Shown here: positions 38,499 through 42,406 of the stretch, in pieces
How the letters are laid out: every line of letters begins with the position of its first letter
How positions within the stretch are numbered: position 1 is the first letter of the stretch
Origin: a virus
Reading direction: 5' to 3' (one strand)
Virus record (IMG/VR): IMGVR_UViG_3300043410_001663
Location: 1-64,000 of that record
DNA: 64,000 bases
Notes under the pieces: generated by a model
Told to the model about the DNA's origin: nothing
Database searches by the model: none
Seen by the model: only the letters and a program-made list of their open reading frames with translations
Position numbers and translations under genes: made by a program

Positions 38499-38573
38499 GC
38501 CCCATTAGCACGAAGGTCGTTGCAGACGCCTTGTAAGCGTCAGGCGGGGGTTCGATTCCCTCATGGGGCACCA
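38499..38573 (+). tRNA. tRNA-Thr (anticodon TGT)
   Basis: Acceptor stem GCCCCAT/ATGGGGC (38499-38505 with 38563-38569), discriminator A and encoded CCA. Short D-stem GCA/TGC, anticodon stem GACGC/GCGTC around loop CTTGTAA with anticodon TGT, and T-loop TTCGATT in a GGGGG/CCCTC stem. It reads ACA. A phage copy may help rare ACA codons in a GC-rich host. Confidence 0.9.
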
Positions 38574-40669: not shown

Positions 40670-41185
40670 ATGGCCAAAGTCAGCGAAAAAGTGGTTACCG
40701 GTAAAGTTCGTTTCTCTTACGCGAACGTCTTCACACCGAAGGCAAGCGAAGAGGGCAAGGAGCCGAAGTACTCCGTGTCGATCATCATCGACAAGAACGA
40801 CAAGGAGACCATCGCGAAGATCAACGCCGCGGTTGAGAAGGTCAAGCAGGGTAGCGCCGCCGTGTTCGGTGGGTCAATCCCCAAGGCCCTCAAGGGCGGC
40901 CTGCGCGACGGTGACGCAGAGAAGGATGACGCTGCCTACCAGGGCGCGTTCTTCATCAACGCCAACTCGTCGATGAAGCCCCAGATCGTAGACGTCAACC
41001 TGGACCAGATCATGGACCAGAGCGAGTTCTACAGCGGTTGCTACGGCCGCGCCTCGTTGACGTTCTACGCGTACAACCAGGCAGGTTCCAAGGGCATCGC
41101 CTGCGGTTTGAACAACCTACAGAAGCTGGAAGACGGCGAGAAGCTGGGCGGCGGTACCACCGCGGCACAAGACTTCGCGGTCTGA
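40670..41185 (+). CDS. ssDNA-binding protein (DUF2815, 171 aa)
   Basis: The start at 40670 has AAGGAGG upstream; earlier in-frame codons are inside the preceding gene. VVTGKVRFSYANVFTPKASE, KYSVSIIIDKNDKETIAKIN and GCYGRASLTFYAYNQAGSKG are signatures of DUF2815, an OB-fold ssDNA-binding family. It protects single strands in replication or recombination with the preceding nuclease. The reading ends just before the large structured RNA. Confidence 0.9.
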   Translation: MAKVSEKVVTGKVRFSYANVFTPKASEEGKEPKYSVSIIIDKNDKETIAKINAAVEKVKQGSAAVFGGSIPKALKGGLRDGDAEKDDAAYQGAFFINANSSMKPQIVDVNLDQIMDQSEFYSGCYGRASLTFYAYNQAGSKGIACGLNNLQKLEDGEKLGGGTTAAQDFAV

Positions 41186-41189
41186 TAGA

Positions 41190-41856
41190 TGAGTCCGGGG
41201 TCGCGCCCCGGATAGGTCAGCCCGGCCGAGTAGAAGGGACAACCCGGTGGGAAGCTCGGGGCCAATAAGTTTGGGGATCGCGCAACGGGTTAGCGCCGTT
41301 GCAGTTCTTTGATCCTTTCTTCAAAACACTGCTTTATGTGGGCGGTCTCCAAACTTGTTGGTAAAAGGGCCTAGTCAGCCCAACCTTTGCCGCGTGGTTA
41401 ACGCGGAAAGCGGACAGGTAAATCCCACTGACAATGGGCAAGCCGGAAAAGTGTTCGCAAGCTGGGAGGTTACCCTACGACCCAGCACCAACGTGAGTGA
41501 GGATTGAACGTACCAGCCACCCCTGAAAGGTGGGGCTCTGGTGGAAAGCGTTACCTGGTAACCAATGCCAGCAGTCCTCACCCATGTTGGTGTATGAGGT
41601 TCTAGTCAAACCGCGGTACTGATCACCGTAGCCTAATTCAGTTAAGGGCCACGCAACCGATGACAACGGTTCGCCAACAACCAACAAAGAAGGTGTTTAG
41701 CCAAGGCGCAGTCCCGTGAGCGGGGACTGAATCAATGCTGAGGTCGGGCGTGCGTCACCACGCCGGGGGCTATATCCTGTAGACACTTTCTTTGTTGGTG
41801 GTTAAGCGTGTTGACGCATGGCCCATAGCCATGAAGGTCGGCGCCCACCAACAACA
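41190..41856 (+). ncRNA. Large ornate structured RNA (~660 nt), GOLLD/ROOL-like
   Basis: A gene-free stretch packed with stems: 41194-41200/41206-41212; 41267-41277/41346-41356 enclosing 41282-41288/41296-41302; 41390-41394/41402-41406; 41461-41466/41481-41486; 41488-41503/41575-41590; 41655-41659/41667-41671; 41681-41699/41780-41798 (19 bp, two GU); 41709-41715/41723-41729; 41817-41822/41828-41833. Closing TTGTTGG/CCAACAA pairs join distant parts. Size, density and phage context match giant RNAs such as GOLLD and ROOL. Family assignment is inference. Confidence 0.7.
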
Positions 41857-41875
41857 TTATCAACTGGAGATTCGT

Positions 41876-42175
41876 ATGAATTTTGGACACGCAATTGAGG
41901 CCCTGAAAGCGGGCAAACGAGTGACGCGCGCAGGCTGGAACGGCCGAGGCATGTTCCTGATCCTGGCCGGTGGCTACAAGGTCCCCAAAAGCGCACTGCG
42001 CGCGGGAGGCCCCATCACCGCTGAGTTCCTGGAATCACGCGACCTGGAAGAGATGGAGATCCTTCCGCACATCGACATGTGGACCGTCAACGCGCAGGGG
42101 CGTCAAGCGTATTTGCCTGGGTGGCTTGCCAGCCAGACCGACATGCTGTCTGACGACTGGGAAACCTTGGAGTAA
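41876..42175 (+). CDS. Tad2-like anti-Thoeris protein (DUF2829, 99 aa)
   Basis: MNFGHAIEALKAGKRVTRAG, WNGRGMFLIL and PGWLASQTDMLSDDWETLE are the DUF2829 hallmarks. Members (Tad2) sequester the cyclic ADP-ribose-type signal of the Thoeris defence system, blocking abortive infection. GGAG lies before the ATG, immediately after the large structured RNA. The length is typical of the family. Whether this copy binds gcADPR is not shown by sequence alone. Confidence 0.8.
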   Translation: MNFGHAIEALKAGKRVTRAGWNGRGMFLILAGGYKVPKSALRAGGPITAEFLESRDLEEMEILPHIDMWTVNAQGRQAYLPGWLASQTDMLSDDWETLE

Positions 42176-42351: not shown

Positions 42352-42379
42352 CACAGCCCACATAAACTTAACATAATCA

Positions 42380-42406
42380 GCCTGGCGCACGCGCCGGGCT
42401 TTTTTC
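42380..42406 (+). terminator. Rho-independent terminator after the Tad2-like operon
   Basis: GCCTGGCG/CGCCGGGC stem (one GU pair) with a CACG loop followed by TTTTTTC. It lies 14 bases before the ribonucleotide reductase gene, so that gene needs its own promoter or read-through. Confidence 0.8.

Follow-up and report, generated by a model that had tools for sequence, protein, structure and literature searches.

The DNA analysed here, referred to throughout as the window, comprises positions 1 to 64,000 of the IMG/VR virus record IMGVR_UViG_3300043410_001663, a freshwater phage. Within it, a structured non-coding region separates a gene for an Enc34-type ssDNA-binding/annealing protein (SSB; PF10991) from a gene for a Tad2-like protein (PF11195), confirming the replication and anti-defence neighbours named in a preliminary description of the sequence (Table 1). 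That description had pointed to some 660 gene-free bases containing long helices, and this is borne out: the longest open reading frames (ORFs) between the SSB stop codon and the Tad2-like start are 50-70 aa and lack family support, leaving no supported ORF in 41186-41876. The long inverted repeats are likewise present (41262-41284/41339-41361, 41486-41506/41572-41592 and 41676-41699/41780-41803), and the closing strands CCAA(C/T)...(G)TTGG are found at all three long hairpins. The tRNA placed 2.6 kb from the region is tRNA-Thr (38499-38573), which lies upstream of the array and is the sole tRNA that ARAGORN finds in the window. The array belongs to an operon in which no terminator occurs before 42379-42400, and its RNA is probably contained within a transcript running from the SSB gene to that terminator.

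Table 1 Features of the non-coding array and its surroundings. z, folding energy relative to shuffled sequence; R1, covariance model of the K family.
Feature	Position	Strand	Evidence and remarks
Upstream gene, Enc34-type ssDNA-binding/annealing protein	40670..41185	+	PF10991, 8.9e-67; phrog_112
Structured non-coding region	41186..41861	+	from the SSB stop codon to just past the final CCAACAAC, ahead of the ribosome-binding site of the Tad2-like gene; z -8.66; no supported ORF
5' GC-rich hairpin TCCGGGGTCGCGCCCCGGA	41194..41212	+	5' piece 41186-41261 weakly better than chance, z -1.5
H1, 20-bp CCAAT/RTTGG hairpin with M1 as head	41262..41361	+	z -8.5
M1 core hairpin 1, AACGG(GTTAGCG)CCGTT	41284..41300	+	at least 119 IMG/VR stretches carry the exact 17-mer
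M1 core hairpin 2, CAC(TGCTTTAT)GTG	41327..41340	+	occurs once in the phage record; conserved across aligned M1 copies
K1 linker domain, GTTGGT/ACCAAC closing	41357..41492	+	z -3.3; R1 12.3 bits (E 0.95), ends coinciding exactly
H2, canonical H hairpin CCAACGTGAGTGAGGATTG...CAGTCCTCACCCATGTTGG, structured insert	41488..41590	+	z -5.5; arms in relatives; stem covariation
K2 tRNA-like domain	41586..41678	+	geometry descriptor match; R1 10.8 bits, E 2.1; energy at chance, z -0.2
H3, 19-bp CCAAC/GTTGG hairpin, multibranched head	41681..41798	+	z -5.8
K3, short linker, GTTGGTGG/CCCACCAAC closing, 3' end of array	41794..41852	+	z -4.5; R1 15.2 bits, E 0.2
Downstream gene, Tad2-like protein	41876..42175	+	PF11195, 1.3e-22
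Intrinsic terminator	42379..42400	+	after a 57-aa ORF, before the ribonucleotide reductase gene

On the + strand, the 691 nt of 41186-41876 fold to -296 kcal/mol, compared with -243.5 +/- 6.1 kcal/mol for dinucleotide shuffles, none of which (0/20) folds as well (z -8.66); the opposite strand reaches z -3.78. A cmscan of the window against the 4,227 families of Rfam 15 gave no match at gathering thresholds; relaxing the cut-off to E <= 10 added just two, both at chance level and to unrelated families. The identity first suggested for the RNA, GOLLD (RF02032) or ROOL (RF03087), was rejected, as neither model matches at gathering threshold or at E <= 10. The suggestion that it could be a new class is upheld, this being a large ornate phage RNA that no Rfam 15 family matches. 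A tmRNA identity was also set aside: the window RNA gives no match, and tmRNA-like stretches were found only in gammaproteobacterial phage arrays. Furthermore, blastn against 50,697 phage records found no relative of the window RNA, of the M1 leader or of the array at locus L201 (both described below), and thus the closest forms are known from uncultured phages only. GOLLD and ROOL are large ornate phage RNAs with kissing (complementary) loops and are often near phage tRNAs (PMC12286853). The window RNA is like them in style, being phage-borne with complementary loops and tRNA neighbours, but it differs in having no Rfam match and in being built from exchangeable units, strung together in numbers that differ from one relative to the next.

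The ~670-nt RNA is composed of three tandem units, each a hairpin (H) followed by a linker (K), with CCAAY/GTTGG strands closing throughout. In each of K1-K3 the closing strands are the next CCAAC and the GTTGG that ends the hairpin before it, so that the same GTTGG strand can pair upstream, within H, or downstream, within K. The first hairpin, H1, has a counterpart in the first hairpin of the L201 array (L201 5371-5480), with ~75% identity over 112 nt and compensatory changes in both outer and inner stems. K1 contains the hairpins GGGC(CTAGTCA)GCCC (41367-41381) and CCCA(CTGACAA)TGGG (41424-41438), whose loops are complementary; extra hairpins make it tRNA-like in part only. K2 is bounded by an acceptor GTTGGTG/CGCCAAC and carries a D-arm-like hairpin GGTT(CTAGTCA)AACC (41598-41612) and a T-arm-like hairpin AACCG(ATGACAA)CGGTT (41655-41671), the latter abutting the acceptor 3' strand and the two loops again being complementary (GTCA/TGAC). 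Read from the sequence, the loops CTAGTCA and TGACAA are common to K1 and K2 on different stems, at spacings of 51 and 52 nt. The interior of K3 is not tRNA-like, and a search for relatives of the H3 head found none.

Membership of the window RNA in two of the families described below, M1 (through H1) and H (through H2), is firm. The placing of K1-K3 in the K family is suggestive and is based on geometry and on the repeated loops. Three of the ten best R1 matches in the 64-kb window coincide exactly with K1, K2 and K3, but their E-values, 0.2-2.1, are not significant. The geometry descriptor matched by K2 is estimated to give ~8 spurious matches in 3.7 Mb of strands.

M1 comprises AACGG(GTTAGCG)CCGTT, a variable part and CRC(TGCTTYAT)GYG, all carried on a free outer stem; the core AACGGGTTAGCGCCGTT ... 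CTGCTTTATG is invariant, and the outer stem can be of almost any sequence. In the window (41262-41361) the core is exact and 21/22 bp of the outer stem are formed. The 17-mer of the first hairpin, present in at least 119 IMG/VR viral stretches, occurs in 0/300 genomes of the Polynucleobacter order, and M1 has no match in Rfam. The core is unchanged in 43 aligned copies; these were collected by the 17-mer, and thus only the second hairpin and the outer stem count as independent evidence. In 51 distinct copies the outer stem has a mean of 12.7 uninterrupted bp, against 3.8 for mismatched flanks, and reaches at least 7 bp in 49 of the 51, against 10% when the flanks of different copies are combined. 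M1 was seen in three settings: the interior of H hairpins, the GTTGGTGG...CCACCAAC slot of K, and the 5' leader of a phage gene encoding 140 aa. In this last setting it is found between a promoter-like sequence and the ribosome-binding site of a ~140-aa protein (L227, L231, L255, L288, L291 and others) that belongs to PHROG 13900, a minor head protein; the M1 leader is a candidate cis-regulatory RNA.

The H family is defined by a 19-bp hairpin with TGAGGATTG ... CAGTCCTCA arms, CCAAC/GTTGG ends and exchangeable inserts, a definition that H2 (41488-41590) fits in stem, arms and ends. A strict pattern of the H2 arms matched 11 IMG/VR stretches and a shorter one at least 120, the latter also matching a Polynucleobacter genome and a Burkholderiales MAG. 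When the five genomes matched by the H pattern were scanned with the K model, support was obtained in Polynucleobacter only; contigs L209, L211 and L213 (Actinomycetes, Planctomycetaceae and Limosilactobacillus) have exact matches to the H 3' arm and no K domain by the model. The H set was picked for pairing (at least 15 of 19 bp), and hence its covariation counts as evidence and its percentage paired does not. Six pairs of the stem are altered on both sides (for example, GG/CC to CC/GG), with a covariation score reached by 0/500 shuffles. Compensatory change of this kind, the check put forward at the outset and one whose failure would have counted against an RNA, is seen in the relatives. A U.G wobble is present in the stem of 27/33 sequences, which fits an RNA of this strand. 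At the fifth pair 19/33 have G.G, a mismatch that makes the bottom of H looser than the K closing stem.

The inserts carried by H range from 24 to 104 nt and, taken alone, are barely more structured than chance (mean z -0.77). In 38 pairs, inserts from different loci share at least 80% identity; the downstream sequence is unrelated in 19 of these pairs and the sequence on both sides in 12, so that the inserts are exchanged independently of their surroundings. A simple arm search found two H-type hairpins in 31 arrays, three in four arrays and five in one. H hairpins fall within ORFs of at least 90 aa in 24/100 cases, compared with 78% of random positions, and the genes downstream of them are co-directional in 82/99. 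There is a modest excess of -10-like boxes just upstream of the first H (10/76, against ~3 in other windows of the same size), and terminators occur just downstream, after K, in 6/78 arrays and in 0/78 random windows. These boxes and terminators suggest that some arrays give rise to free RNAs. As a separate observation, CGGAAAGACG hairpins recur a short way 5' of many H hairpins.

Many H hairpins are followed immediately on the 3' side by the K sequence, GTTGGTGAATGCGNAGGCTGATNCGC ... GCCGGAGATCAGCACCGGCCACCAACAAC. Its plan is a 7-bp acceptor-like stem (GUUGGUG/CACCAAC), a short linker, a 4-bp D-arm-like hairpin, a variable region in the position of a tRNA's anticodon and variable arms, and a 5-bp T-arm-like hairpin that abuts the acceptor 3' strand. 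Pairing is nearly complete in 27 K sequences that were selected by loop motif alone and not by pairing: 188/189 cells are paired in the acceptor, 134/135 in the T-stem and 107/108 in the D-stem. Double changes are present, and the acceptor varies between GTTGG/CCAAC, TGTGG/CCACA and GATGG/CCATC. At the loop-loop position, the same 27 sequences have G-C in 18, A-U in five, G-U in four and A-C in none. K is thus like a tRNA in its acceptor-like 7 bp, its D-like 4 bp, its T-like 5 bp abutting the acceptor and its D and T loops able to pair. It is unlike a tRNA in that the loops join by 4-6 Watson-Crick pairs rather than by tRNA contacts, in that the T-like loop is of 7-9 nt, and in being without an anticodon arm or CCA; neither ARAGORN nor the Rfam tRNA model (RF00005) calls the K domains of the window. 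At locus L172, genuine tRNA-type D and T arms occupy the K acceptor slot.

By blastn, K is also found in cultured Klebsiella, E. coli, Pseudomonas and lambdoid phages, and it is present in 636/5,426 E. coli genomes. In the late leader of HK620, K is flanked by pR'/qut and the tQ terminator, and Klebsiella phage UPM 2146 has it beside tRNAs, in a 3.3-kb stretch without annotated genes. The latter stretch (L216 1396-4731, corresponding to ~88,006-91,340 of MN478483) has no annotated gene and looks full of structured RNAs, with a canonical K, an STnc100 match, D-arm-less tRNA-like folds and then tRNA genes.

The nearest known relative of K is STnc100 (RF02076), the consensus of which has an 8-bp UGGUG/CACCA-closed stem, a short hairpin and a CCGGG(AGGCA)CCCGG hairpin abutting the 3' strand, as in the plan of K. 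K2 (41586-41678) shares this arrangement, being stem-closed with a short hairpin on the 5' side and a hairpin abutting the 3' strand; the STnc100 model itself finds no match in the window at E <= 10. A gathering-level STnc100 match is present in UPM 2146 in the same array as the canonical K, and the K model independently gives the site of that STnc100 match a weak score of 19.6 bits (E 0.02). Unlike the window RNA, STnc100 comes without a described H, M1 module or tandem array in the literature examined. PasD, identified through Hfq RIL-seq and northern blotting, is regarded as having a common ancestor with STnc100, and both are expressed prophage sRNAs (PMC13192938).

Several other structured RNAs were observed in loci that carry K. 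Stretches resembling tmRNA lie upstream of it in L214 2236-2394, L216 2196-2394, L217 1578-1667 and L218 2206-2353 (the HK620 late leader); they match the Rfam permuted and beta tmRNA models weakly, and their putative tag frames would encode ANDDVVLMAA, ANDNTFLAVA, ANDNQYLAVA and ANEEMYLAVA, each followed by a stop. A tmRNA mimic is possible in lambdoid and Ackermannviridae phages. In a Salmonella IncFIB phage-plasmid (NZ_CP030187; L217 2302-2431), a tRNA-like gene keeps its acceptor, D-arm and T-arm intact while a structured insertion of ~85 nt replaces the anticodon arm. In Pseudomonas phage PS-1 (L215 2264-2343), a Proteo-phage-1 RNA (RF03044, 63.7 bits) lies ~150 nt upstream of a K domain, and this orphan motif may be part of the same arrays.

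The slot behind the SSB gene was compared across 80 IMG/VR loci with a related SSB. Among these first 80 loci a CCAA(C/T)...(G)TTGG hairpin was found in L012 only, along with a weak 283-nt match in L015; L012 and L102 each have a single H hairpin in the slot. L002 has 129 nt that are 94.6% identical to K1 and, as in the window, directly 3' of the SSB gene. L015-L017 have two or three genuine tRNA genes in the same SSB-RNR slot, and none of the slots of the fetched relatives contains a Tad2-like gene. Since the slot can hold tRNAs, a K1-like piece or H, it is a site at which tRNAs and tRNA-like RNA modules substitute for each other. In the closest loci, L003-L008, the slot is of ~50 nt, and TGACAGCCCGGAAAGACGGGCACC, directly after the SSB stop, resembles a truncated K-type remnant. 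Beyond this slot, a tRNA lies within 200 nt of an H hairpin in 9/100 cases, where 1.5 are expected, and 17/17 tRNAs near H hairpins are on the same strand.

Taken together, our findings demonstrate structure, covariation and modularity in these RNAs, the restriction of M1 to phages and an association with tRNAs. There can be little doubt that the window RNA is a member of an uncatalogued modular phage RNA superfamily. That it represents a new modular RNA class is proposed with high confidence on the basis that nothing in Rfam 15 matches it; the check for prior description covered the open-access literature, and one known family, STnc100, appears to be an outlying relative of one module.

The best explanation for the whole joins this modular superfamily to a trans-acting scaffold for host factors, and we hold it with a confidence that falls just short of even. 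Its functional part, in which the window RNA is a trans-acting phage RNA presenting swappable modules on tRNA-like scaffolds, is put forward tentatively. The H hairpin leads directly into the K acceptor stem and carries the exchangeable insert, which in the first unit of the window is M1, and phages exchange inserts, K domains and genuine tRNA cores within one frame. We infer two steps, transcription as one RNA and action in trans. During host takeover or counter-defence, the scaffold could then offer its modules to host factors, the likeliest being proteins of the tRNA, translation or RNA-decay machinery, and shuffling would change the factor engaged. Several results count against this explanation: R1 gives K1-K3 no significant score, K2 folds at chance-level energy, K1 and K3 deviate from tRNA geometry, isolated H inserts are barely more structured than chance, and the searches of inserts against rRNA and of the window modules as antisense to their own genome gave no excess. 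A functional precedent for tRNA-type phage RNAs exists in the phage tRNAs that serve as counter-defence against tRNA-cutting defences such as PARIS/AriB (PMC11455837); those are real tRNAs with altered anticodon stem-loops, whereas the array RNAs are putative mimics.

It is tempting to speculate further that M1, H inserts, K cores and sometimes real tRNA cores are exchanged within the tRNA-like scaffold and strung into arrays as a combinatorial RNA toolkit, giving rise to rapidly evolving decoys or ligands aimed at tRNA-directed or RNA-binding factors of the host; we regard this extension as unlikely on present evidence.

Also rather improbable is a cis-acting role, in which the hairpins and tRNA-like folds would protect, punctuate or process the SSB-Tad2 mRNA through paired 5' ends and RNase P- or RNase E-type cleavage by the acceptor-like stem, as for tRNAs in polycistronic RNAs. 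The position of the window array inside an operon, with no terminator until 42400, is consistent with such an element, as are the co-directionality of 82/99 downstream genes, the frequent placing of M1 in a 5' leader, between a promoter-like sequence and the ribosome-binding site of a gene, and the junction of the H 3' strand with the acceptor 5' strand, which are contiguous at the point expected for RNase P cleavage. However, some arrays end in their own terminator, inserts are exchanged regardless of the adjacent sequence, and M1 and K keep their loop cores constant on varying stems, which suggests specific recognition over mere stability.

Lower still we place a family of base-pairing sRNAs whose variable regions would be seeds for host or phage mRNAs. 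The K-plan relatives STnc100 and PasD are prophage sRNAs, PasD coming from Hfq RIL-seq (PMC13192938), and the inserts are the exchanged part, as such a role would favor. Against it, the inserts are mildly structured and not open, and antisense signal is lacking: the inserts match rRNA in both senses no better than shuffles do, and the window modules show no excess over shuffles when searched as antisense to their own genome. At shuffle level, rRNA mimicry or antisense by the inserts and own-genome antisense by the window modules were both rejected as candidates.

Self-assembly through complementary loops into a cage or multimer, as in GOLLD and ROOL, seems highly improbable. The complementary, covarying loops, phage location and tRNA neighbours do resemble those RNAs (PMC12286853), and covariation cannot separate intramolecular from intermolecular pairing; nevertheless, neither sequence nor covariance-model searches matched the RNA to GOLLD or ROOL, and a unit number of 1 to 5 is ill-suited to a fixed cage. 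Most doubtful of all is an integron-like function of the repeats as DNA, in which folded strands or short homologies would serve cassette recombination in the manner of attC and the RNA fold would be a by-product: modules are exchanged between phages and short CCAAC/GTTGG ends are common, but the H-stem U.G wobble (27/33) and the strand asymmetry in folding energy fit an RNA of one strand, on which the nearby tRNAs all lie.

Should the presentation of swappable modules on tRNA-like scaffolds prove right, an ‘empty’ layer of phage genomes, amounting to 3.3 kb in one Klebsiella phage, the lambdoid phage late leader and more than 100 intergenic regions of freshwater phages, would be a shared and shuffled vocabulary of structured RNAs. 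The orphan sRNA STnc100 would gain a wider family and a fold, phage tRNA genes would be linked with tRNA mimics, and M1 and K would provide concrete motifs for binding-partner tests. If the toolkit reading were also true, such arrays would be an RNA counterpart to shuffled anti-defence genes.
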